NCBI GenBank assembly: GCA_958295785.1
Contig: OY282377.1
Coordinates: forward strand, 124,001 to 188,000
Length of the DNA: 64,000 nucleotides
Direction of reading: 5' to 3'
Source of the DNA: an uncultured Latescibacterota bacterium
GTDB taxonomy: Bacteria; Latescibacterota; UBA2968
Shown: positions 35 to 24,859 of the stretch, one piece after another
How positions within the stretch are numbered: position 1 is the first letter of the stretch
Layout: every line of letters begins with the position of its first letter
Program-made: the position numbers and the translations under genes
The notes under the pieces: generated by a model
What the model was told of the DNA's origin: nothing
What the model saw: only the letters and a program-made list of their open reading frames with translations
Database searches by the model: none

Positions 35-1039
35 TTACGGACGGGGTGAATGCCATTCAAATACCACGCCCAACGCTTTTTGTGGCGCGTCGGCGAGCAG
101 GTCGTAGGTGGTCTGGCAATCGACGGGTTTTGCGACATGGGTAATCAGGTCTTCGATGGGCAATTTGCCCGCGGCCATCAAGCGCAAGACCAGATCGCGG
201 TCTCTGCTTTTGTTCCAAGGATAATAGAGGTGGGCGTTGTCCGGCGTTTTGGGTTGATGCGCGCCCAGAATGGTGACTTCGCGCTGGTGAACGTCGGGCA
301 AAAAGCTCACTTCCACTTTGCCGCGCGGAGACCCCAGCGCGACCAACCGCCCACCCAGCCTGGGCAAAGCGAGTGCCGTGGGATAGACCGCGGGTATGCC
401 GGTTGCTTCAATGACCAAATCCGCGCCGTCGGCTGTGCAGTGTTCGCGCACGGCTTGTGCGACATCGGCTACGGCCTGGGGATTGAGGCAGACATCTGCG
501 CCCCGGGTATGGGCTTTGTCCAACCGAAAGGCGTTTATGTCGATGGCAATGACCGGGAGTGCGCCGGCCAAGCGGGCAAAGGTGGCTGCCAATTGACCCA
601 CAATGCCCATGCCCGTGATGGCGACGGCCTCGCCCAATTCGGGACGCCCAACCCGATGCCCGTGCAGGGCGATGGCACACATGACCATAAAAGCCGCGGA
701 TTTGGGCGACACGCCCGCGGGCACTTTGAAGAAATTCTGGGTCAGGACCGCGTGATGCGCGTGATTGCCCTGCCCGGCGATGCGGTCGCCGGGTTTGATC
801 CCCTTCACATCTTTGCCGATTTCGAGCACCACGCCCGTGTTGCAATAGCCCGTTGTGCGCGGGAATGCGCTCGGCCGGGATGGCTCGCCCCCGTGTGCGT
901 AGGTGTAGATTTCCGTGCCAACGCTGACGGCGGTGTAATCGTTTTGCGCCAAAATGCCGTGGTCCGGCACGCGCGGCAATTCAAATTCCCGCAATTCGAT
1001 TCGCCGGATATCCGTGCATACCAAGTGCTGCGATTTCAT
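35..1039 (-). CDS. Zinc-type medium-chain dehydrogenase (MDR family)
   Basis: Probable NAD(P)-dependent oxidoreductase of about 334 residues. The N-terminal half is a GroES-like fold (GTE at 41-43, then TGYCNTG and KPGDR around 63-86). The C-terminal half is a Rossmann domain with TGMGIVG near 142-148. The four-Cys structural zinc loop of classical alcohol dehydrogenases is absent, as in the sorbitol/threonine-like and BchC-like branch, so the substrate is probably a polyol or sugar derivative; this is inference. The start is set by AGGAG about 8 bases before ATG. It lies 14 bases after the stop of the upstream M20 hydrolase gene, so the two are likely co-transcribed. The exact substrate cannot be read from the sequence. 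Confidence 0.85.
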   Translation of the reverse strand: MKSQHLVCTDIRRIELREFELPRVPDHGILAQNDYTAVSVGTEIYTYAHGGEPSRPSAFPRTTGYCNTGVVLEIGKDVKGIKPGDRIAGQGNHAHHAVLTQNFFKVPAGVSPKSAAFMVMCAIALHGHRVGRPELGEAVAITGMGIVGQLAATFARLAGALPVIAIDINAFRLDKAHTRGADVCLNPQAVADVAQAVREHCTADGADLVIEATGIPAVYPTALALPRLGGRLVALGSPRGKVEVSFLPDVHQREVTILGAHQPKTPDNAHLYYPWNKSRDRDLVLRLMAAGKLPIEDLITHVAKPVDCQTTYDLLADAPQKALGVVFEWHSPRP

Positions 1040-1053
1040 TTTTCGTTCTCCTG

Positions 1054-2376
1054 TTACGGGGGATCGACCGGGACTTTCTGGCGTTTTGGAATGATCGGAT
1101 CGTAGGTAAAGTCCTCGGTTGCCTTTTCAAATTCAGCGCGGGCCGCTCGCAACCGCTCGGCGTCCAAAATCAGATCAATGGCCGATCCGGCAAAGACTTT
1201 GGCCGTTTGCAAAATCGCACGCTCGGCAAAGGGCATTGCGGCTTGGGCGGTCATGTCGCGGTGATGACCCGGCGTGCCCTTGGTGTAGCACACCATCTGA
1301 AACCGCCCCATCGGCGCCAGCCACGATACATTGTCTTCATCCGATGAGCCGCGCCCTTGAGACCCCTTGCCCTTTTTGATCTGCCCGTCAAATTTGCCTT
1401 TGTAGCCCAGGGCCTGCACGCGCTCTTCGTCTTTTTTTGAGGCGTGCGGAGGGCCGAATAATTCGAGGTTTTGGCGCACGGTTTCACACATGGCATCGTT
1501 TGGCAACCGGGGATAGACGGCCGTGATCCGGTGCCATTTCACGGTGGTTTCCGTGGCCATGGCCGCGCCTTTGGCGCATTTGGTCAGTCGCTTGCGGATC
1601 TCATCGACCTGTGCGCGATCCTTTCCCCGCACGTAGTACCACACTTTTGCATAAGCCGGCACCACATTGGGCGCGTCGCCACCGTCGCGAATCACGCAGT
1701 GAATACGCACGTTTTCGGGTACGTGTTCGCGCAAATAATTCGCCGCAACATCCATCAACATCGCGCCATCCAATGCGCTGCGCCCATGGTGCGCGCTGGC
1801 GCCGTGAGACGTTTTGCCAAAAAATTCGTACACCAGCGAATCGAGTGATGAGCCCCCGCGATTGTTGACGCCCGTACTCGTTCCCGGATGCCACGCGAGC
1901 ACCGCGTCCAAATCGCGGAACGCGCCGTCGCGGGCCATATAGACTTTGCCCGCCAAGGTTTCTTCGGCCGGGCAGCCGTAATAGATGATCTGCCCGGGGG
2001 ATTTCAAATGTTCCAACACCGCTTTTGCAGCGACCGCACCTGCGGCCGGGGCAACGCCCAACAAATTGTGGCCTCAGCCGTGCCCCCAGGTGCCTTCCTC
2101 GGCACCGCAGTTGGGCAATGCGTCGTATTCGCCCAACATGCCAATGGCGGGGTTGCCCATCCCCCATGTGGCGCGAAAGGCCGTGGGGATGTTTTTGAAC
2201 GGAAATTCGATTTGGAATCCATTGTCTTCCAAATAGGCCGCCAATGCCTTCGACGATTCGCATTCCCGAAAGGGCCGCTCGGCCCAGCCGTGAATTTGTC
2301 GGGACAGATCAAACGCCCGCCGCGATTGGGATTTCACGGCCTGATTGACCTGCGTTTTTTTGCTTTTTGCATCCAT
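1054..2376 (-). CDS. M20-family amidohydrolase, probable selenoprotein (in-frame TGA at residue 101)
   Basis: About 440 residues, the normal length for AbgB/aminoacylase-like M20 metallohydrolases that cleave acyl-amino acid or peptide-like amides. An in-frame TGA at 2074-2076 falls inside the motif GHG-x-GHNL, where the family has Cys (GHGCGHN). Reading continues in the same frame with all later motifs intact: the Glu pair in CPAEE, the His in AWHPG, a dimerisation domain, and the late His in GTPGHH. In M20D enzymes of known structure the Cys and His of this CxH motif bind the metal. A UGA at exactly that Cys, with no other lesion and a hairpin at SECIS distance, argues for selenocysteine rather than decay. 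The ATG at 2376 has AAGGA upstream; a GTG at 2382 is a poorer start. No selenocysteine machinery lies in the window. Confidence 0.75.
2045..2062 (-). promoter_or_regulatory. Candidate bacterial SECIS hairpin after the in-frame UGA
   Basis: Counting the U of UGA as 1, bases 15-21 (GUUGGGC) pair with 25-32 (GCCCCGGC) around a bulged C29, leaving the three-base loop GUU at 22-24. The loop starts with G followed by U and sits about 22 bases from the UGA, matching the E. coli fdhF SECIS layout (loop G23/U24). GGCC at 4-7 can alternatively pair with GGCC at 30-33 to lengthen the stem. Pairing was worked out by hand, with no folding energy calculated. Confidence 0.5.
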
Positions 2377-2653: not shown

Positions 2654-3223
2654 TTAGCGAAACATAGAAGGGTGTTTCTGCTCAAGAGATTCATAGAATA
2701 GTTGCGGCGTAGCTTTTGTTTTACGTTCTATGCACCAATTTTCTAAGTCGTTCATGTCTTTCAAAACAGGCCATTTCCACAGGTAAGACGGGAAATCCCT
2801 TTTTGTGTAGGGATATTCTAATACCAAGAACGTGCCCAAGGGCAAATCCTTTGTTATAGCAATACCGATTTCCAAAGGAACCCACCAAGAATGAGCCGTA
2901 TTGTGCGAGACTACGGCGATTAAACTCTTACAGCATTCAATGACGGAATGTATGTAATCAACCAATTCCGGTCCGTCACCATCAACATTAGGATCCCAAA
3001 TATCCAAATATGCCGTCAATCCACATTGTGCAATCTCGGTCGCTACCTTCTTAGCAATAATCTCGTCCTCGCTTTTATGAGACACAAAGACATCCGGGTT
3101 TTCTATACGAAGTTTGTGGCACAAATTATCAATACGGCCCTCGATGCTATATCCTTCTATTAGGATATCGCGAGGAGTATAAGTATAGCCTCTGTAGATA
3201 TAACCTCTCCTATTCGTTTTCAT
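2654..3223 (-). CDS. TIR-domain protein, probable NADase-type defence effector
   Basis: 189 residues. A TIR domain covers about residues 43-150: DVFVSHKSEDE opening (44-54), a central DGDGPEL segment, then VVSHNTAHSWW and E118 in W114-V-P-L-E118. This Glu in a WxxxE context matches the catalytic residue of NAD-cleaving bacterial TIR proteins. The first 40 residues (rich in Tyr, Arg) are unfamiliar and might be a sensor or oligomerisation segment. The gene starts 12 bases after the stop of the restriction-methylation gene, with the Shine-Dalgarno AGGAGG lying in the gap, so it was built as the second gene of that operon. A role in phage defence is inferred from family and context. Confidence 0.8.
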   Translation of the reverse strand: MKTNRRGYIYRGYTYTPRDILIEGYSIEGRIDNLCHKLRIENPDVFVSHKSEDEIIAKKVATEIAQCGLTAYLDIWDPNVDGDGPELVDYIHSVIECCKSLIAVVSHNTAHSWWVPLEIGIAITKDLPLGTFLVLEYPYTKRDFPSYLWKWPVLKDMNDLENWCIERKTKATPQLFYESLEQKHPSMFR

Positions 3224-4163: not shown

Positions 4164-5252
4164 AGGACTTACGCATGCTGAGTTAAAAAAGGGTGCAATT
4201 CCGTAAAATTTATCACTTTGAGGAGGTGTCAATGCGCCACCCGACGCGTTTGGATTACTGTCAGTATCTGCTTAGCCGTCCCCTCAACGATACCCTGACC
4301 CATTTCGCCGACCACAGCGAAGGGTTCAGTCATGATATGATCAACCGCTATCTCGCCGGTGAGCGTATCCCCCCCGCTTGGTGTGGGAACACGTCAAAGA
4401 CCACATCGCGTTGACGCCCAAAGGCTATGTGATCTTTGATGACCCGGTTTTAGACAAGCGACATGCGCGCAAGATCGCGTTAGTGCGTCGTCAATAGAGC
4501 GGCAACGCCCAAGGCGTCATCAACGGCATCGGGGTGGTCACATGTGTCTATGTCAATCCGCAACAGGATCGGTTCTGGCTGATTGACGATCGGATTTATG
4601 ACCCGCAAGGCGATGGCAAAACCAAATTGGATCCTCTCAAGGACATGCGCTCTGTGTGGGTCTATCAGAAGTGCCTTCCTTTTACCGGGGTCTTGATGGA
4701 CAGTTGGTATGCGACCAAAACGGTCATGTTACACAGAGAGCAGATGCAAAAAACCTATTCTTGTCCCCTCAAGACGAACCGGCGCGTGGACGAGTAGGCA
4801 GGCACAACCCCCTACCAGCGCGTAGATAGCTTAACTTGGACTCAAGCGGAGCGCAAACAAGGCAAGCCCATTAAAATCAGAGGGTTTCCCAAAGACCACA
4901 AAGTGAAATTATTCCGGGTAGCGTCTTCTGATAGACGCACGGCGTATGTCGTGACCAACGACCATGCTCAAAACGATTCTTCAGGGGTACAACAGGTGTG
5001 TCACAGGCGATGGAAAATTGAGCCCTTTCACCGCGAAGTCAAACAGGTGACCGGGCTTGAAAAGTGTCCATGTCGGTTGGCACGCATGGTACGAAATCAT
5101 ATTGGGTGTGCGATGTTCGTTTGGATTCGACTCGCGCAGGTGGCCTATCAAACAGGACAAACCATTTATCAAGTCAAATACCGGGGGCTGGCTGACTTCT
5201 TGAGACAACAACTCAAAGTACCTCATATTCCAATGGAGATTGCGTAAGTCCT
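4164..5252 (+). mobile_element. Insertion sequence, copy 1 (DDE transposase, decayed), 1089 bp
   Basis: Ends are AGGACTTACGCA and its reverse complement (12-base perfect inverted repeat). The 7-mer ATAATTA flanks both sides (4156-4162 and 5253-5259), consistent with target duplication. It sits inside the restriction-methylation gene; joining the flanks over one repeat restores the frame (ENRVI-IVPSAGG). A second copy, about as long, is at 50625-51715. The family looks like an IS4/IS701-type DDE element, but the exact assignment is uncertain. Confidence 0.85.
4193..5247 (+). pseudogene. Transposase of IS copy 1 (broken)
   Basis: Recognisable DDE transposase in pieces: an N-terminal segment from MRHPTRLDYCQYLLSR, a frameshift near 4370 after IPP, an amber stop after VRRQ (near 4495), another TAG after RRVDE (4796), then the C-terminal part with YVVTNDHAQN and RWKIEPFHREVKQVTGLEKC, the usual YREK-like end. 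The amber after VRRQ is present at the same place in the other copy, so the shared parent was already broken. Confidence 0.85.
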
Positions 5253-7633
5253 ATAATTACCCTATTCTCCATTTCTGTCTCAGGCGTGGGGAATATGGAT
5301 GGGAATAAGGATACTCTATCGATCATCACTCTGTCAAAGTAGAGGTTCGATTTCGTAAAGGGACGATAGAGAGATGCCCTCACCTTTGCGTGCGAAAAAG
5401 CAGCAGTTTTCCCTCTTTTTAAGTTCCCTTTAAGTGTTTCGCTCCACTTAATTTTTTTCTCATCAGAAATCACAAAATTATCGACATTTTCATCTCGATT
5501 CTCCCGCCGTTCCCACTTGAACACTTGCTCATTGTAGGTTTCAATCATCCGCTTCAGGTTTTCGGCGAGGGCGTTTCGGTTAAAGTTGTAAGCCCATGCA
5601 TCCCGAGCGGTATTGACACCGGGACTATAAAGTTTGAAAATCACATCCACCGCCTCGTCTTTTCCTGCCTTTGCTTCTTTGCTCCCTATCGGTATGAAAG
5701 TATCAAACGCGGCGTCGAGTCCTTCGGTGAGCCATGTATATCGCTTATCAGGCGTTATTGGCTTCCATTCGACGTTGCGGTAATGTTCCTTTGAATCGAG
5801 ATAGCGATACTTTTCTTCTTTCCGCCAGAACTCGTCAACGCGAGCGTAGAAAATTTTGGCGGGGGAATTTGCGCTGTCGTTCTTTTTGATGAAAAAATTG
5901 ATGCTCACACCGACTTGGATTCCAAAGACGTTGTGCGTTGTGCCTGAGAGCTTTGGGTTCTTGCGGACGTTCCCACTCAAATCGAGAATGTAAATCGAGT
6001 CGAAATCTTCTGCGAGGTGTTTTCGCATGCCATCAAACGCCCTGCCGTCGAGAAATCCGTTGTTCGTTACCAGCGCGACAACGCCTTCATTGCCAATCCG
6101 ATCCGATGCCCACCGAATCGCCTTCACATACGGGTCTTGTAAGTATCTTTTAAGCGTCGCCTTCGAGTCTTTGGCATACGTCTCCGCAACCCGCCTATCT
6201 ATCGTCTCGTATTTCCGATTTTTGTTATTGTCGTTCTCGTTGACCTGCCCCGCGTTGTAGGGTGGATTGCCGACAACCACAAACATATCCGTTTTCTTTT
6301 GTCGCTCAACGCGCTCCGCGTTTTTCGCCGTGAACAGGGCCAGTTGGCGATCCTCGGCCAGTTCAAAGGTATCGACCAAGCGCAGCCCTTCAAAGGGTTG
6401 ATAGTAGCCCGTCGCCTCGTAGAACTCGTGCTCAATGTTCATAGACGCGATGTAGTACGGCAACAGCATCACCTCGTTGCAGTGGAGTTCGGACGAGTAC
6501 TTGTCCGCCAGCGCGGTTTTGCGAATTTCGCGCATCATGCGGACGATGAAATTGCCAGTGCCGACAAACGGGTCGATGATGTGGACGCCCGGATCCGATA
6601 ACGTAGGGGCAACGTCCCCGTGCCTGCCCGCAAACTCGGTCTGCAAAATTTGCTCAACGCTTTTCACCATGAAATCGACGATGGGCTGCGGCGTATAGAC
6701 AATGCCGTGCGTATCGGCGACCTCCACCGAAAAGCCCTGAAAGAACTGCTCATAGACCGTGTTGAGGAAGTGCTGTTTTTGGGAGAAGTCATTGATCGTC
6801 GCCGCGGTCTGCTCGATAGCCATATAGAAATGGTTGAGGCTGTCGAGAAAATCGCGGCGGCTGAACGATTGAGACGTGAGCGCGTCGATGACCTTCTCGA
6901 TCTCGTTGGCGATGACATTGCGGCGGGTGAAGTCGGGATTGCTGAAGACGGTGCGGAAAATCCGCTCGGTCAAGAGGTGTTGAATGAGCATCTCCTCGAC
7001 GGCAGCTTGGGAGAGATTGGGGTTGATGGATTGACGGCATTTTTCGTAGAAGTCCGCAAAGGCCGTGGTGAACCGGCGGTTGGTCTGCCGCTCCTGTTGG
7101 ATCAACGCCGCCAACCCGCGCCCGATGTCGGGAACTTTGTCCTTGAACTGTGCGACCACCTGTTCCCATTTGGCGATCTCTGGCGGACGATGGGAAAAGA
7201 AGGTTTCGAGCGTCTGGACGAGTTGCTTTGGATCGGTCAAATCGGCGTCGAGAACGAGCGCGTCATTCTGCCACAGAATAGCCCTGCGCGGCGTTTGGAA
7301 CAGGATGTTGTCCCGCGGATAGCCCGTTGCAAACTTGCGTTGCACTTCGGCGTCGAGGTCGTCGTGAATATCCTTTGCTTCCCAATAGCCGTGCGGCAAG
7401 TTGAAGGCGTCGATCAACGCGCCATCGACGACAATCCGCTTGTTTCGGCGTAGCGTGATGGAATGCTCCGGTACGAGCGTCCACTTAAACTGCCGAGCGC
7501 ATGATTCGAGCAGCGATTGAAACGCCGAGCGCACGGCGGTTTCATGCGTGACGCCGATCCGATCAAATTGATCGAGCGATTCATAGTACGCACGCACGGG
7601 CTTGTGCGTGGGTTTGAGATTGAGGGTTGGCAT
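5253..7633 (-). pseudogene. Type ISP-like restriction-methylation enzyme, 5' part (interrupted by IS)
   Basis: About 795 residues before the IS. The N-terminal domain has a PD-(D/E)xK nuclease signature: D70 in VVDG and E85-A-K87 in YWEAKD. A helical linker follows. An N6-adenine methyltransferase domain has motif I DPFVGTG (354-360) and motif IV NPPY (456-459). The fused nuclease-methylase-specificity layout without a helicase fits the type ISP-like/type IIG class, which protects self DNA by methylation and cuts unmodified DNA. The 3' third is at 3236-4163. In this state nuclease and methylase domains remain but target recognition is lost. The product now ends in IS sequence after ENRVII. 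Start ATG 7633. Confidence 0.85.
6602..6629. repeat. REP-like unit in coding sequence
   Basis: GTAGGGGCAACGTCCCCGTG followed by CCTGCCC, the same type of unit found in intergenic DNA at 33252. Here it encodes part of residues 335-347 of the restriction-methylation enzyme just before motif I, so a repeat has been absorbed in frame. Confidence 0.6.
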
Positions 7634-16783: not shown

Positions 16784-18424
16784 TCACGCCGCAGTTGGGT
16801 CTCTTTGCTTCTGAACGAGGAACGCCGCCGTGGCGCAGGTCAGGCCGATAACGAAATTGTAGTACCCTATGATGAGTAAATGGTGATACGACAAGCCGTA
16901 CAGGGCCATCACAATAACCCATCCGACGACCAGATCTCTGCCTAGGGACTTCGGCACGATCCAAAGCAACCGCATCAAGAAGAACAGGGATAACAAGTAT
17001 AATGCCAATGGAATAATGCCCGCTTCGCCAACCAGCATCAGGTACACATTATGGACGCCAGTCGGTCTCCCCTGGTTTCCGATAGGGGAACCCTCCATAT
17101 AGTGGAGTTGATACAAGCCGTGACCTGCGATGGGCGATTCCAGGACCTTGTTGAAGCCCATCCCCCACAAGAGCATTCGTCTCGATAGAGCTCTCGCACT
17201 GCCGATGTTGGAATCGGCTTTGCCTCGGAAAGCCTCCACGGTATTGCCCGGGTCCTTCAGTAGCTGGCCCAGCGCGCCGGCATCCGTCGCGGCCGTTGCG
17301 GATGCCGCCATGATCGGGCCTATGGCCTTCGTCTGAACCCGGTGCGTCATGCCGTTCTTCTCGTAGGACACCCAGGCGCGCAAGAACTTGCCCCCGTCTT
17401 CGTCCGCCGGGGTGTAGTTGGGTGAGAGCGCGTCTTCGATGTTGGTCCAAGTGGCGTCGTCGGGCATATTGGCATCGCCGGGCCGGGCGTCGGCCCGCTG
17501 CCATCGCCAGGGATTGACCGGGTTGTCGTCAGCCCGGTGGGACTTGTCGTAAACCAGGAAAACGGTGACAGTGTCTCCCACCCGCTTTGCTTCGTGCGGG
17601 TCAACAATCCAGGCCTCGTCGGTATACCCTACCGGCGCCCCCGGAATGAGCCAAACCAGGACGCCGGCCATGCACAGAACAGTCAGGCCGGTATGCATGA
17701 GGTCTTGTCTTAGGCGGCGGACGTTCAGCAGCAGGAACAAAGTCAGCATCCCGCCCAGAACAATAACCGCCGTATAGGAAACCGATGCGAGTCCCGCGGC
17801 GCATCCCAGGACCAGGGCCACACACCCGAAGGGACGTTGTCGTCCGTTGGATTGAAACGCCAACGCCAGCACTGCCGTCAGGCAAGCGATGAAGCCCGCG
17901 TCGTTGGGGTCGGTAAAAGTGCCGGTCAGGCGATAGGGATGCTGGTACTCCGGCAACACGCCAATATCGCGTAGCAACGGCGAGGCCAGAACGACGGCGC
18001 AACTTGCCACCAGAATCACGAGCGTCCACTTCAACAACGTCTCGGCCCCGATTCGCTCCAGTAGCCAGCGGCCGCCCAGTATGGCAGCCAGGGTGACGAG
18101 GAAGAAGAAGGCTTGGCGCAGCACGTCTTTGGTCAACAATTCGGCGTCGGTGGCGAGCGAAGTGCCGGAGGAAATGAAGAGGTAGGACGCTATCGAGGCG
18201 AGGAGGAACCATCCGGGCGTTCCAAGAGACTTCCACCAGCGGAGGCGCACGAAACCCAGCAGGAGCAGGCAACACAGGAGCATCGCCCCAAGGACGAGCG
18301 GCTCTATCACACCGCCTTGCAGCTTTATGTGGACCAGGACGGCCAGCACCCAGAAGGAAAAGGAGATGCAGGCGACCGATGCGAACTCGAGTCGCCTCCA
18401 GAGTAACGGAATAAGCCGCAGCAT
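16784..18424 (-). CDS. O-antigen ligase/polymerase (WaaL/Wzy-like) with embedded Ig-like module
   Basis: 546 residues, about eleven membrane segments. The Wzy_C-type large periplasmic loop holds the family motifs RMLLWGMGFNKVLESPIAGHG (416-436) and GVHNVYLMLVGEAG (456-469). Such proteins link or join polyprenyl-bound glycans at the periplasmic face. Odd feature: residues about 303-370 of the loop form an Ig-like module (NPWRWQRAD, ATWTNIEDA, YTPADEDGGKFLRAWVSY, VQTKAIGP) like the one fused to the GT-C enzymes nearby. Second oddity: the first 16-17 residues (MLRLIPLLWRRLEFASV) match those GT-C proteins, not ligases. SD AAAGGTGA is four bases before ATG 18424. Confidence 0.85.
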   Translation of the reverse strand: MLRLIPLLWRRLEFASVACISFSFWVLAVLVHIKLQGGVIEPLVLGAMLLCCLLLLGFVRLRWWKSLGTPGWFLLASIASYLFISSGTSLATDAELLTKDVLRQAFFFLVTLAAILGGRWLLERIGAETLLKWTLVILVASCAVVLASPLLRDIGVLPEYQHPYRLTGTFTDPNDAGFIACLTAVLALAFQSNGRQRPFGCVALVLGCAAGLASVSYTAVIVLGGMLTLFLLLNVRRLRQDLMHTGLTVLCMAGVLVWLIPGAPVGYTDEAWIVDPHEAKRVGDTVTVFLVYDKSHRADDNPVNPWRWQRADARPGDANMPDDATWTNIEDALSPNYTPADEDGGKFLRAWVSYEKNGMTHRVQTKAIGPIMAASATAATDAGALGQLLKDPGNTVEAFRGKADSNIGSARALSRRMLLWGMGFNKVLESPIAGHGLYQLHYMEGSPIGNQGRPTGVHNVYLMLVGEAGIIPLALYLLSLFFLMRLLWIVPKSLGRDLVVGWVIVMALYGLSYHHLLIIGYYNFVIGLTCATAAFLVQKQRDPTAA

Positions 18425-18435
18425 ACGTTCACCTT

Positions 18436-18610
18436 TTAGTCATGGTCGTTTGGCCAGCCGCCCGTGCGGGGGGTTGTTTCCGGCACAGGTTGCACAGTTC
18501 GGCGGCCACGCGGTCGTACCAGTCCGCGCTCCGAAAGTGGCCCCCTCGCCGTCTTGCTCCCTCGCAGAGTTGCCGGTACAATATCCCCGGAGTGGTGGGG
18601 AAGGTCGTCC
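18436..18610 (-). repeat. Duplicated 3' end of the GT4 gene, remnant A
   Basis: Near-identical to the last ~150 bases of the GT4 gene at 24875-25020 plus the short gap and Shine-Dalgarno that follow it. It lies between the GT-C gene at 18626 and the ligase gene at 18424. Its reading frame is broken. Homology to the GT4 gene stops at the codons for LYRQL, where other DNA begins. Confidence 0.85.
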
Positions 18611-18625
18611 GTGTTGGCCGTCAAA

Positions 18626-20905
18626 CTACCGCCGTTTCTCCTCGAACCAGTGCTCCGTTTCCCAAAGGAGGTTCCCATAGCGGTCAACCTGTCCGGTTCG
18701 GATGCCGACGATGTCTTGGTCGGGAATATAGCGCTCAGCGACGCAGGTTCCGTTGTTCTTCCAGAAATTTTCGTGCCATTCAAAATCCAGCGTATCGCGT
18801 TCCGGCGTTCCACTTTCGGAATCCAACAAATAGACGATCAACGGGAACTGCGTACCGGCTTCGTCTTCCCATCTGCAGTTCCGGTTCCTATAGATCAGCC
18901 TGTTTCCGTGGAGGTACAGATCGTACTTGGAACGAATGCCGCGGTCCGCTTCGGAAGCGCCCCGCCGCGCCCCTCCGTCTTCGCTTCCAAGCGGCGCCAA
19001 TACTTTCAGGATGTCCGGCTGTACGGGTTCGGACGGCTTGGTCATCGCTTTCACTCGGTTGCCGAGGTGGTCTGCGTAGTACACCGAAGCGCGCAGGCGA
19101 TGCCCGACATCGGTAACCGTGGGGGTGTACCCGTAGTCAGACCGTTGAACGGGGAGGCTCGTCCAGCTATCGGCATCGTCGTCTTTCTCCCACCGCCACG
19201 GTTCCCCGGGCAGCCGCTGGCCGTGGGACATGTTGAGAAAGGCGACGAACAACTTGCCCTCCATCGGAGCATCGGAACTGTGGAACATGGCGGGCGGGAA
19301 CTCCCGGAAGTCGCGTTCGCGCAGGCGATACAGCGTGCCGTCCGCCAGTTCCGCCACCAGTTCCAGCAAAGGCTCCCGAGACAAGGCGATTCGGAGGGCG
19401 TCGTCCTGTTGCCAAGAGCATGGGTTCCAAGAGGTCCAGTCACTGGAATAGAGGGCATGGAAATAGAGGACATGCACCTCTCCTCTGCCAAGTGCGTGCG
19501 ACAATGCGGGCCTCACACGATCCGGTTTACACAGTAGTCTGTAATGGCGTGCCGGACTGTCGGCGTGCAAGCGCGGGATGATCGGGTTATTGCCCAGGAT
19601 CGTGCCTGTCAAAGCCGCCTCCCGAATGTACTGCACGCTCTCTGAATTCCTCCACCGCTGTTCGCCATACCCTTGTCGCACACCGGCATTATAGAGCAGT
19701 ATGTCGCGGGCATGCAGCGCAACCAGTCCGGCCGCCTGCAGGGACAGTGCCAACATCAGGATGGCTGCAAGTGTCTTCCCCCGATCGCTTGAACTCCCCC
19801 CACTGGCGCGGTAACGATTCCGCGCATACCGGAGGGCGCCGTCCATCAGTAGCAGCGCCGCGAACAGGAGCGGAACATACACGGGAATGAGGAATCTCCC
19901 CAGGTCGGATTCAACATACCAGGTGGCTCCCAGCATCACCGCGGCGACGAACAGAGTCAGGTACGCGAGCGCAAAACCGCCGAATACGCGCAACGGGCCC
20001 CAAGCAACATCCGAAGCAACGGGAGCGCCGCTTTTCCGGCGCGAGAGGCGGTGGAACGCATGGCAGGCGACCATCACGAGTGCCAACAGGACCGGGGCGG
20101 TCAACCCGCCGATCCACGAGCCCGCAACCGCAAGTCGTAAAAACTCGTACACGATGAAGCCAAATGAGTAGGGATCCCAGCCTCTTTCGCCGGTCGTTGA
20201 TCCGGCAAGCAGAAAGTTCCGCAGCATCCACAGACCCACCGGCACCGCGGCAATCAGCGTATAGACGACGATGCGCTTCATCTTCTCCCGCGGCGCAACC
20301 CGCGCGGCAAGCAACAACGGGACCACCGCCAGGATCAGGGAAACGCCCATGTAGCGGGTCAGGCAGGCCAGCGCGCTGAACGCCGCCGCCCGGATCAGGG
20401 ATGCGCGTCCGCCGCCGCCCAGATGGGCGTCGATCTGCGTCAGCGAGAGCGTTACGAACAGAACGAAAACCGACTCGGTCAAGGCCTGGGACGCGATCTC
20501 GGCGAGCGGAAGGGCAAGTGCGGTCGAGAGGCAGCCCCACAGCCACAGGAGACGGGAGTGCAGATGGCGCCGCAGCCACCAACCCGCGACCAGAACGGTC
20601 AGCCCGAAGATGACGGCGTTGAGCGGCCCGGCGACCGCGTAGGGGTCGAACCCGAACAGTCCCCCGCTGGCGAGCATCGCCGGATACAGCGGCGGCCAGT
20701 ACACCCAAGGGCCACCACCCGTGCCAACAAGACCATCACCCGCCAGGAGGCTGCGGGCCGCTGTGATGTAGCTGGCGGCATCCGTACCCACGCTTGGTCC
20801 GTAGCTGGCCAGCCGCAGGAATACGAGACCTGCGCCCAGCGCGGCGATGCAGGTGACCGATGCGAAATCGAGTCTCCTCCAGAGCAACGGAATAAGTTGC
20901 GGCAT
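18626..20905 (-). CDS. GT-C membrane glycosyltransferase with Ig-like module and Cys-pair C-terminal domain
   Basis: 759 residues, the intact representative of the set. About ten membrane segments lie in 1-395 with the acidic loop motif D42 in SVGTDAASYITAARSL and WPPLYPAMLA (70-79). A periplasmic tail follows: LVAELADGTLYRL (516-528), an Ig-like module about 560-630 (PGEPWRWEKDD, WTSLPV, YTPTVTDVGHRLRASVYYAD), and a terminal domain 660-755 with YLHGNRLIY, Cys677 and Cys721, TLDFEW and RTGQV. A polyprenyl-phosphate sugar donor is expected for the family. The protein at 22454-24859 is a close paralogue, so this is a duplication product. SD AAAGGT upstream of ATG 20905. Confidence 0.85.
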   Translation of the reverse strand: MPQLIPLLWRRLDFASVTCIAALGAGLVFLRLASYGPSVGTDAASYITAARSLLAGDGLVGTGGGPWVYWPPLYPAMLASGGLFGFDPYAVAGPLNAVIFGLTVLVAGWWLRRHLHSRLLWLWGCLSTALALPLAEIASQALTESVFVLFVTLSLTQIDAHLGGGGRASLIRAAAFSALACLTRYMGVSLILAVVPLLLAARVAPREKMKRIVVYTLIAAVPVGLWMLRNFLLAGSTTGERGWDPYSFGFIVYEFLRLAVAGSWIGGLTAPVLLALVMVACHAFHRLSRRKSGAPVASDVAWGPLRVFGGFALAYLTLFVAAVMLGATWYVESDLGRFLIPVYVPLLFAALLLMDGALRYARNRYRASGGSSSDRGKTLAAILMLALSLQAAGLVALHARDILLYNAGVRQGYGEQRWRNSESVQYIREAALTGTILGNNPIIPRLHADSPARHYRLLCKPDRVRPALSHALGRGEVHVLYFHALYSSDWTSWNPCSWQQDDALRIALSREPLLELVAELADGTLYRLRERDFREFPPAMFHSSDAPMEGKLFVAFLNMSHGQRLPGEPWRWEKDDDADSWTSLPVQRSDYGYTPTVTDVGHRLRASVYYADHLGNRVKAMTKPSEPVQPDILKVLAPLGSEDGGARRGASEADRGIRSKYDLYLHGNRLIYRNRNCRWEDEAGTQFPLIVYLLDSESGTPERDTLDFEWHENFWKNNGTCVAERYIPDQDIVGIRTGQVDRYGNLLWETEHWFEEKRR

Positions 20906-20928
20906 GCGTTTACCTTTGAATCACGGTC

Positions 20929-20972
20929 GTTTGGCCAGCCGCCCGTGCGGGGTCTATTTCCGGCGCATATCC
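20929..20972 (-). repeat. Short remnant of the GT4 3' end, remnant B
   Basis: About 40 bases matching the very end of the GT4 gene (minus strand CCGCACGGGCGGCTGGCCAA) directly before the Shine-Dalgarno of the GT-C gene at 20905. It is the minimal form of the unit seen at 18436 and 22447. Confidence 0.7.
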
Positions 20973-21021
20973 GGTAGCGACAGCACTCGGGGCTCGTCTA
21001 TCAGTCAGCTAGTGCGTGACG

Positions 21022-22173
21022 TCAGGCGTAGCGGCCGACGATTTTGACGCCGTACTCATCGGCGGGCATTCCCTTGCAATAGCCGCACGTTCGTGGGAAC
21101 AGACCGTTGTGAAAATCGCCTCGTATGGCGCGTATCCGATGGTCGTTCCAGATTTCTTCCAGGCTCTTTTCGAAGACATTTCCCAAGCTGTATCTGGCGG
21201 AGCAGCAGAGGTTTACGTTGCCGTCCTGACTGATCTGAATCTGTCCGGTCCAGGGCGCCAAGCAACAGCCTCCTCCCGAGGGATCAACCCGCCGCTTCAC
21301 AAGCGGCAATATGTTGAGCTCGATGGGAAGCAGCCGCGACGCCCGGTGCGCCGCCTGTTTTAGGCTCACGCCATGAGCAGCGGCAAATTCCATATTGCCG
21401 GCCTCAATGGTGATGCCCAGTTCCTGCGCTCGTTCCCGAATACGCGGCAACTGGTCGAGGAATGTCTGGCCGACCTCGCGGTTGAACTGCTCGTGATACC
21501 GGTAAACGAAATCCTCAGCTTCACGATATGCCCCCTTGAGAATCTTCGGGTTCGGGTCCAGCTTCATGAACCGCACCTTGGAAACTCCCGTGCGATGGGC
21601 AAGCAGTAGAAAGTCATCGATCTCGTTTACGGTTTCCTTCACGACGATATAGCTGAACCAGAACTCGTTGTCCGGGGAACCGCTCAGGGTGCTTTTTTCG
21701 GTCAGGTAGGAGATATTGTCCATGACCCGTTGTAGGTCCTGCCCCATGATCTTCCGGTAGGTCGCGGACGTTCCGGCGTGGATGGAGAACATGATGTGGA
21801 GCCTGGTCGCCAGGAGGCGGTCGACCAACTCGGGTTTGAGAAAGAAACCGGTGGAGTTCATATGCAGATAACAGTCGTTCGCGCGCGTCGCCTCAATGAA
21901 GTAATCGATGTTGCGGCTGATCAGGGGTTCACCATACAGGTGAATGCCCAGTATTTCCAGATATTGGAAATACGGGCTTACTCTGTTGAGCAAGTCTTGA
22001 CTGACGTCGACCGACTTTCTGCCGTGTTCGTCAGGCACTTTGCACATGATGCAGGTATACGGACACCCGCGCGTCGCCTCGAGGTACATTACGGACGGAA
22101 AGGACTTCACGGTAACCGCCCGAGAGGAGAGGTCTTCCGCCAGGAGATGATCGTTTTGCCGGGATACTGACAT
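21022..22173 (-). CDS. Radical SAM/SPASM enzyme
   Basis: 383 residues from ATG 22173, which has AAGGAG nine bases upstream; the frame is open further but without such a site. Cluster motif C37-x3-C41-x2-C44 (CPYTCIMC), LYGEPLIS for the GEP motif, and a C-terminal SPASM domain with GGGCCLAPW, NLCCSARY, LGNVFEKSLEEIWN and CGYCKG. It is only distantly like the radical SAM enzyme at 15664, so two different modifications are likely. It sits between the two paralogous GT-C genes, in the operon. Substrate unknown; a sugar, lipid carrier or peptide are all possible. Confidence 0.85.
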   Translation of the reverse strand: MSVSRQNDHLLAEDLSSRAVTVKSFPSVMYLEATRGCPYTCIMCKVPDEHGRKSVDVSQDLLNRVSPYFQYLEILGIHLYGEPLISRNIDYFIEATRANDCYLHMNSTGFFLKPELVDRLLATRLHIMFSIHAGTSATYRKIMGQDLQRVMDNISYLTEKSTLSGSPDNEFWFSYIVVKETVNEIDDFLLLAHRTGVSKVRFMKLDPNPKILKGAYREAEDFVYRYHEQFNREVGQTFLDQLPRIRERAQELGITIEAGNMEFAAAHGVSLKQAAHRASRLLPIELNILPLVKRRVDPSGGGCCLAPWTGQIQISQDGNVNLCCSARYSLGNVFEKSLEEIWNDHRIRAIRGDFHNGLFPRTCGYCKGMPADEYGVKIVGRYA

Positions 22174-22446
22174 ACTGGTATGCTCCTTCTGGTCGGCGGC
22201 CGGCGTGGCCCGGACAGACAACGTTACCCGCCTCGGTACGGATATTCTACTGCCATACGTCTCCGAGGTCAACGGATAGTCCGTATTCGTTAGTGCTATC
22301 CCGCCCCTGTTCTTCAACCCTGCCCCGCCCGGGAAACCCGGTTCATCCCGCCGCCCGACGGCGCGGATTGTCCTCATCATGTCCACACGAGAGGCGGTTG
22401 TCAAGGTCGAAAGGGGGCGGATGTATTAGCGACAACATACGATGAT

Positions 22447-22610
22447 TTATCCTTTAGTCATGGCCGTTTGGCCGGCCGCCCGTGCGGGATCTGTTTCCGG
22501 CACAGGTTGCACAGTTCGGCGGCCACGCGGTCGTACCAGTCCGCGCTCCGAAAGTGGGCCCCTCGCCATCTTGCTCCCTCGCAGAGCTACCGGTACAATA
22601 GCCCCGGAGT
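22447..22610 (-). repeat. Duplicated 3' end of the GT4 gene, remnant C
   Basis: Same unit as at 18436, matching the end of the GT4 gene at 24875-25020. Here it lies between the paralogous GT-C gene and the radical SAM gene. Because the GT-C stop codon is lost, the GT-C frame runs through this remnant to 22454. Confidence 0.85.
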
Positions 22611-24859
22611 GATGGGGAAGGTCGTCCGTGTTGGCCGTCAAACCACCGACGTTTCTCCTTGAACCAGTGCTCCGCTTCCCAAAGGAGGTTCCCATCGCGG
22701 TCAACCTGTCCGGTTTGGATGCCGAAGATGTCCTTGTTGGGAAGCTGGCGCTCGGTGACGCAGGTGCCGTTGTTCTTCCAAGAATCCTTGCGCCATTCAA
22801 AATCCAGCGTATCGCGTTCGCGCTTTCCACTTTCGGAATCCAACGAATAGACGAGCAACGGGAACCGCGTACCGTATTCGTCTTCCCAGCTGCAACTCTG
22901 GTTTTCATAGATCAGCCTGTTTCCGCGGAGATACACAGCGTACTTGGAACGAATGCCGCGGTCCGCTTCGGAAGCGCCCGCCACGCCCCTGCCGTCTTCG
23001 CTTCTGGGCGGTGCCAAGAGCACTTTCGGGATGGCCGGCTGTACGGGTTCGGACAGCTTGGTAGTCGCTCTGACTCGGTTGCCGCCCTGGTCTGCGTAGT
23101 ACACCGAAGCGCGCAGGCGATGCCCGACATTGGCAGCCGTGGGGGTGTACACGTAGGTGGGCCGTTGAACGGGGAGGCTCGTCTAGCCATCGGAATCGCC
23201 GCCTTTCTCCCACCGCCACGGTTCCCCGGGCAGCCGCCGGCCGTGGGACTGGTTGAAAAAGGCGGCGAACGACTCGTCCACCACCGGAGCATCAGAACTG
23301 CGGAACATGGCGGGCCGGGACTCCAGGGATTCGCGTTCGCGCAGGCGATACAGCGTGCCGTCCGCCAGTTCCGCCACCAACTCCAGCAAGGGCGACCGAG
23401 ACAAGGCCCTTCCGAGGTCGTCGTGCTGCTGCCGAGAGCATTCTCCCCGCCAGTCACTGAAATAGAGGACATGCACCTCTCCGCTGCCAAGTGCGACCGA
23501 CAAGGCGGACCGCAGACGATCCGGTTCACACGGTAGTGCGTAATGGCGTACCGGACTGTCGGCGTACAAACTCGTGACGGTCAGGGCCTTGCTCACGATC
23601 GCGCCTGTCAGAGCCGCCTCCCGAAGGTACTGCACGCTCTCTGAATGCCTCCACCGCGGTGCGAGATACCCTTGTCGCACACCGGCATTCCAGAGCCGTA
23701 TCTCGCGGTCATGCAGCACAACCAGCCAAGCCACCTGCAGAGACAGCACCGACATCAGGACGGCGGCAAGTGTCTTCCGCACATACCGCAGGGTACCGTC
23801 CAGCAGTAGCAATGCCGTGAGCAAGAACGGAACATACACCGGAGCGAGGAATCGCCACTGCAATCCATCCCAGGTGCCTCCCGACATCATCGCGGCGACG
23901 AGCAGCGTCAGGTAGGCGAGCGCAAAACCGCCGCATACGCGCAACGGACCCCAGGCAACATCCGAAGCGACAGGAGCATCTCTTTTCCGTTGCGAGAGGC
24001 GATGGAACGCATGGCAGGCGGCCATCACGAGGGCCAACAGGACCGGGGCGGTTAACCCGACGAGCCACCAGTCATTGACGGCGAGGCGCACCGCCTCGGC
24101 CACGATGAAGCCAAATGAGTAGAAACCCATGTCTCTTGCGCCGGTCGGTGATCCGACAAGCAGATAGTTCCGTAGCATCCACAGACCCACCGGCGCCGCG
24201 GCAATCAGCGTATAGACGGCGATGCGCTTCATCTTCTCTCGCGGCGCAACCCGTGCGGCAAGCAGCAGCAGCGGGACCACTGCCAGGATCACGGCAGCGC
24301 CCATGTAGCGGGTCAGGCAGGCCAGCGCGCTGAACATCGCCGCCCGGATCAGGGAGGCGCGTTTGCCGCCGCCCAGGTGGGCGTCGATCTGCGTCAGTGC
24401 GAGCGTTACGAACAGAATGAAAGCCGACTCGCTCATGGCCTCGGACGCGATCTCGGCGAGCGGCAGGGCCAGCGCGATCGAGACGCAGCCCCACAGCCAC
24501 AGGAAGCGGGAGTGCAGATGGCACCGTAGCCACCAACCCGCGACCAGAACGGTCAGCCCGAAGATGACGGCGTTGAGCGGCCCGGCGACGGCGGACGGGT
24601 CGAGCCCGAACAATCCCCCGCCAGCGAGCATCGCCGGATACAGCGGCGGCCAAAACACCAAAGGGTTACTACTCAAGCCGACAAGGCCATCACCCGCCAA
24701 GAGATTGCGGACCACCGTGATGTAGTTGACGGCATCCCACCCCATGCTCGGTCGGTAGCTGGCCACCCGCAGGAGCACGAGACCCGCGCCCAGCGCGGCG
24801 ATGCAGGTGACCAATGCGAACTCGAGTCGCCTCCAGAGTAACGGAATAAGTCGCAACAT
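22454..24859 (-). pseudogene. GT-C membrane glycosyltransferase with Ig-like module, amber codon inside
   Basis: Close paralogue of the protein at 18626 (same N-terminus MLRLIPLLWRRLEFA, same acidic loop GWDAVNYITVVRNL, same tail motifs). The frame is open from 24859 to 23183, where TAG stands in place of the Trp of WTSLPV in the Ig-like module. It then resumes in frame with TYVYTPTAANVGHRLRASV and the Cys-pair domain (Cys in NQSCSWED and NGTCVTE). At the position of the sister gene's TAG stop (22643-22645) this copy has TGG, so reading continues into the GT4 remnant. As it stands the translated part keeps the whole membrane domain but loses the Ig-like and terminal domains. Confidence 0.8.

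Follow-up and report, generated by a model that had tools for sequence, protein, structure and literature searches.

The closest described relatives of the enzyme considered here are the amidohydrolases and aminoacylases of the M20D family, such as CsAga (6SLF), HmrA (3RAM), YxeP (1YSJ), AbgB (3IO1) and PM20D2 (7YH4). In CsAga the active-site Cys bridges two zinc ions (PMC11511702), and in both 4EWT and 6SLF it is described as a bidentate ligand (PMC11389852). A second group of related systems are selenoproteins whose selenocysteine (Sec) coordinates an active-site metal, namely formate dehydrogenase (Mo/W-Se) and [NiFeSe] hydrogenase (Ni-Se) (PMC13188914). The model of the bacterial SECIS element comprises a stem of 4-16 bp, a loop of 3-9 nt with a G in the first two positions, a distance of 16-37 nt from the UGA, and an MFE of -7.5 or lower (PMC13188914).

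The window (the whole stretch of 64,000 nucleotides that was analysed) contains a gene that very probably (roughly 0.93, for both parts of the claim jointly) encodes a selenoprotein belonging to the M20D family, as judged from sequence comparison. Its open reading frame (Table 1) consists of 440 codons in a single frame with a single internal TGA, located exactly at the Cys of the motif GHGCGHN (codon 101, GHG-TGA-GHN), as stated in the original prediction. The ATG start at 2376 is preceded by a Shine-Dalgarno-like AAGGA, a GTG 6 nt further upstream (2382) is an alternative start, and the stop codon is TAA (1054-1056). The family sequence had been described as intact on either side of the TGA and in one frame, in agreement with the profile matches: TIGR01891 (amidohydrolases) covers residues 23-384 with 195.6 bits (curated cut-off 153.75), and the M20 dimerisation (satellite) domain M20_dimer (Pfam PF07687) is found at residues 184-271. 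Profile matches among PDB entries are HmrA, human PM20D2, an IAA-amino-acid hydrolase, YxeP, an N-acyl-glutamine aminoacylase and AbgB, with identities of about 17-27%. A Foldseek search using an AlphaFold model (built with 20 close sequences; mean pLDDT 66, residues 85-104 below 50) places M20 enzymes on top, with HmrA (E-value 1e-24) and PM20D2 first.

Table 1. Positions in the window of the amidohydrolase gene, its predicted active-site residues, the candidate RNA elements and the adjacent dehydrogenase gene.
Feature	Position	Strand	Remarks
M20D/AbgB-like amidohydrolase CDS	1054..2376	minus	440 aa with TGA translated as U; TIGR01891 and M20_dimer; orthologues of equal length
In-frame UGA, predicted Sec, residue 101 (GHG-U-GHN)	2074..2076	minus	TGA in 22 complete UGA orthologues and a partial one; TGC in G023
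His103, predicted metal ligand two residues after Sec	2068..2070	minus	invariant; aligns with CGH of HmrA, PM20D2 and 4EWT
Glu138-Glu139, predicted general base and metal ligand (CPAEET)	1960..1965	minus	invariant; aligns with PAEE of M20D structures
His163, predicted metal ligand (WHPG)	1888..1890	minus	invariant; aligned to M20D structures
His371-His372, predicted C-terminal metal ligand (PGHHRD)	1261..1266	minus	invariant; aligns with GHTHRF of HmrA
Candidate bacterial SECIS hairpin CGGCCGC-AGGU-GCGGUCG	2031..2048	minus	7 bp; apical loop 2038-2041; UGA-to-loop distance 32 nt
Possible accessory mini-hairpin GGGC-GUU-GCCC	2049..2059	minus	directly 5' of the SECIS hairpin; 4 invariant pairs
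Zinc-ADH-like dehydrogenase	35..1039	minus	PF00107; 14 nt after the amidohydrolase stop

The metal ligands of the M20D family (Cys-x-His, Glu-Glu, His and the C-terminal His) can all be aligned, with Sec in place of Cys. Residue 101 aligns with the metal Cys of 4EWT and with the CGHN motif of HmrA and PM20D2. It had been proposed that the Cys at this position binds the metal in M20D structures; this is correct, and bridging is explicitly stated for it (PMC11511702, PMC11389852). Since a pair of metal ions is bridged by the Cys at this position in M20D structures, the most likely role of Sec101 is to bind metal in a hydrolase, and by homology we expect such ligation with good confidence. The assignment is based on the alignment, since the active site of the AlphaFold model is poor. 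A role of Sec in redox chemistry or regulation instead, for example as an oxidisable switch or in the reduction of a bound compound, is unlikely: a redox function is assumed for the majority of known prokaryotic selenoproteins (PMC13188914), and the family has other invariant cysteines, for example Cys90, Cys135 and Cys267, but the protein has neither a CxxU nor a UxxC motif, it retains all other M20D ligands together with the Glu pair, and residue 101 is the bridging-metal position in the structures.

As to the insertion of Sec, the original prediction had suggested a search of the genome for selA, selB, selC and selD, and all four components are present: SelA (573 bits), SelB (386 bits, encoded just downstream of SelA), a tRNA-Sec with anticodon UCA (70 bits), and a SelD whose gene adjoins that of the tRNA-Sec and carries a UGA of its own at the catalytic position (CGG-U-ASK). 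SelB and tRNA-Sec are found in all genomes that harbor the UGA gene; in one of them (G005) SelB is distributed between two contigs, and none of its parts reaches the cut-off by itself. We note that SelD (locus L001, G000:C1 near 2160613, minus strand, beside the tRNA-Sec) is itself a selenoprotein, and that a hairpin, TCCAGC-GGT-GCTGGA, has its loop beginning 20 nt downstream of the SelD UGA. The GGU loop in this gene of the same genome suggests the same recognition by SelB as for the hairpin of the amidohydrolase gene.

The latter hairpin is formed by a near-invariant stretch, TGGGC...GCCCCGGCCG(Y)(R)GGTGCGGT(Y)G, which folds into 7 bp with an AGGU or GGGU loop 32 nt from the UGA. Synonymous divergence was computed at fourfold-degenerate sites of nine representative Sec genes in windows of 12 codons. 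For windows starting 2-4 codons past the UGA it amounts to 0.09-0.13, compared to a median of 0.62 (421 windows); these windows just after the UGA, over the hairpin, are the minimum of the whole gene. Those third positions near the hairpin that do vary are situated in a loop or outside the hairpins, or they maintain the pair as G-U, and across 22 distinct sequences every pair of the hairpin is kept in every sequence. Most of these pairs are invariant, and hence pair counting in the 22 sequences yields no two-sided covariation. The predicted energies range from -9.3 to -11.4 kcal/mol, and the bacterial SECIS model is matched in 7 of the 7 Sec genes tested. When the stretch is recoded at random with synonymous codons, a hairpin of equal stability arises in 28-47% of cases, and stability is therefore not used as evidence. 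For a SECIS element the weight lies in the synonymous conservation, the criteria by themselves being weak and of low specificity. An Rfam scan of the region returned no match to a SECIS family, which is expected because bacterial SECIS elements vary. In the possible mini-hairpin only the loop varies (GTT, GTA or ACA), and support for it is weak because there is no covariation.

These observations also bear on how the UGA is read. Decoding as another amino acid, by a reassigned code or by near-cognate read-through, or use of the UGA as a regulatory stop that yields a peptide of 100 residues, is very improbable. Low-level read-through is always possible and a truncated product may arise under selenium shortage, but the genome has the full Sec system, the hairpin is constrained, the checked homologues without UGA have Cys at the site, and TGA ends 21 of the 40 long ORFs of the window. 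It is thus the commonest ordinary stop codon there, and therefore the code is not reassigned. Taking the sequence evidence together, actual incorporation of Sec at residue 101 appears almost certain.

A search of 64 genomes of the phylum identified the gene with exactly one TGA in 23 genomes (the window's own included) from nine genera and three families. The TGA occupies the same codon in 23 of 23 cases, without any other internal stop; in one genome (G010) two contigs each carry part of the gene. The 22 other UGA orthologues are 72-90% identical to the copy in the window. The genome of the latter consists of one contig (5.66 Mb), and a second one-contig genome (G008) also has a TGA orthologue. 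Among all orthologues of the phylum with at least 68% identity, which derive from independent assemblies, a single one (in G023) departs from the pattern of one TGA at this codon. Likewise, column 101 of a 20-sequence alignment holds TGA, or Cys in G023, and is otherwise invariant. Stop codons elsewhere in the gene of close relatives had been named as evidence that would speak against a selenoprotein; there are none in any orthologue. Values of dN/dS are about 0.03-0.15 on both sides of the UGA, the downstream part being approximately as constrained as the upstream part, which indicates that purifying selection is acting on both halves of the gene. A nonsense mutation, gene decay or a sequencing error at a Cys codon, for which a single change from TGC to TGA would suffice and for which the predominance of MAGs among the related genomes might speak, was, as far as a random nonsense mutation is concerned, already considered unlikely in the original prediction and is refuted by the comparative data, with a negligible residual probability: the codon is TGA in 22 other assemblies from 9 genera without any other stop, this agreement making a base error untenable, and dN/dS is far below 1 downstream as well.

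The exception is informative with respect to the alternation of UGA and Cys at this site, which had been suggested as a test and does occur. The orthologue in G023 (68% identity) has TGC at codon 101 and is the sole TGC orthologue in the clade. Its hairpin is broken, and no hairpin in this gene reaches the SECIS energy limit. The best match to SelB in G023 has 188 bits (cut-off 242), the level of elongation factor Tu-like proteins in all these genomes, and the best match to tRNA-Sec is below the cut-off. Absence of SelB and tRNA-Sec from this genome is likely, though not certain, because it is 86% complete; the orthologue itself sits on a 5.8-kb contig. The exchange of U and C at codon 101 would then follow the Sec machinery. 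In the gene tree G023 forms a long branch, unplaced within an unresolved base, and for this reason the tree does not prove which of Sec and Cys replaced the other.

The pattern GHG-UGA-GHN, searched in 84,980 named genomes, matched 72 stretches. Those that are M20 are all found in Latescibacterota, 'Gemmatimonadota/Gemmatimonadetes' or unclassified MAGs, and the remaining stretches have no blastp match to the amidohydrolase protein. Judging by this strict motif, which would not detect Sec forms flanked by other residues, the family probably does not extend beyond Latescibacterota. The pattern HAUGH[DN] has one match in the 64 genomes of the phylum, which is not M20. Two further loci were considered and rejected as additional Sec-M20 genes, neither having a TGA at the metal Cys. 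The first (G039:C97:733-1746, L129) is a distant M20 paralogue with an intact Cys and a TGA elsewhere (RLG-U-VKEG), present in a single genome and perhaps an error. The second (G035:C437, L130) is an M20 remnant with TGA codons that extends across frames and looks broken.

With respect to genomic context, co-transcription of the zinc-ADH-like dehydrogenase gene with the amidohydrolase gene is probable. A homologue of the dehydrogenase is located directly downstream in 8 of 16 neighbourhoods and within about 1.4 kb, with one gene between, in 4 more; in the one of these four that was checked (G015) the intervening gene encodes an M19 dipeptidase. Genes for isopropylmalate/tartrate-dehydrogenase-like, enolase-superfamily and RraA-like proteins as well as sulfatases recur nearby. 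Such a neighbourhood suggests a cassette for the catabolism of a compound that contains an amide. Other genes on the minus strand of the window were also noted. Directly upstream of the amidohydrolase gene, positions 2654-3223 encode a small TIR-domain protein (PF13676) that is similar to ThsB from Thoeris anti-phage defence (PADLOC ThsB, E-value 4e-10). Positions 5213-7633 encode a protein of 806 aa similar to Type ISP/IIG restriction-methyltransferases (PF18135, PF22240, PF02384). The region 16784-24859 encodes three large, near-tandem proteins with the common start M[LP]RLIPLLWRRL(E/D)FA, one of which matches the O-antigen ligase domain Wzy_C.

Taken together, we propose that SelB and Sec-tRNA(UCA) decode the UGA at codon 101, that the hairpin 32 nt downstream guides them, and that the product would be a 440-residue M20D amidohydrolase (AbgB/HmrA-like). 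Sec101 would replace the bridging Cys, leaving the ligands His103, Glu138/139, His163 and His371/372 unchanged. The mechanism would be ordinary metal-dependent hydrolysis of an amide, in which a selenolate rather than a thiolate holds the metal pair. That the enzyme hydrolyses an amide bond is likely on the basis of its family membership, and a plausible class of substrates would be N-acyl amino acids or dipeptide-like compounds, in keeping with a catabolic gene cassette. Selenium might pay off because the ligand is softer and more acidic, or because its oxidation is reversible and not terminal. The full picture, which we hold to be reasonably likely, is that of a selenolate bridging the two catalytic metals of a dinuclear, purely hydrolytic enzyme, in which Sec serves as a structural and electronic ligand, was retained while a bacterial class diversified, and gave way to Cys where the Sec machinery was lost.

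The original prediction knew of no described Sec-containing M20 amidohydrolase, and the inventory of May 2026, which covers 119 families of prokaryotic selenoproteins (Table 1 of PMC13188914), indeed has no entry for M20 or TIGR01891. Neither do the deep-Sep predictions of 2025 include an M20 enzyme, the selenoprotein-specific NCBIfam models do not match the amidohydrolase, and full-text literature searches (subscription papers and protein databases being outside their scope) revealed no Sec-containing M20 protein; a Campylobacter paper met in these searches concerns the absence of selenium genes. The novelty would lie in an uncatalogued combination of a known enzyme family with a known recoding system, with Sec as predicted hydrolytic metal ligand. 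In this group the conserved enzyme will usually be misannotated, because standard gene callers split or truncate the gene.

If the assignment is correct, the enzyme is one of the rare instances where selenium is found in a hydrolase and not in a redox enzyme. Sec as a bridging ligand then poses the question of what selenium gains beyond electron transfer, be it in the choice of metal, in the acidity of the ligand or in avoiding the irreversible oxidation of a thiolate. As G023 and its UGA relatives constitute a natural U/C pair, the effect of Sec versus Cys is testable by a swap of one residue.

In comparison with known systems, the enzyme shares its fold and family (by sequence), the CGH[ND] and PAEE motifs and the C-terminal His site with the M20D amidohydrolases, but has Sec for the bridging Cys and represents a separate subfamily whose C-terminal site reads PGHHRD. 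It resembles the SelD of the same genome, which has a UGA at its catalytic position (motif UxxK) and a downstream GGU apical loop, whereas SelD is an enzyme of selenium metabolism and already a well-known selenoprotein. MerB-like organometallic lyase SaoL and other Sao/UXX-star selenoproteins are likewise non-classical selenoproteins with a Sec predicted to bind metal; they are, however, linked to heavy metals and belong to different families, for which no hydrolytic metal pair has been described. Formate dehydrogenase and [NiFeSe] hydrogenase, finally, are redox enzymes that employ Sec at Mo/W or NiFe centers, whereas the site predicted here is dinuclear and hydrolytic.
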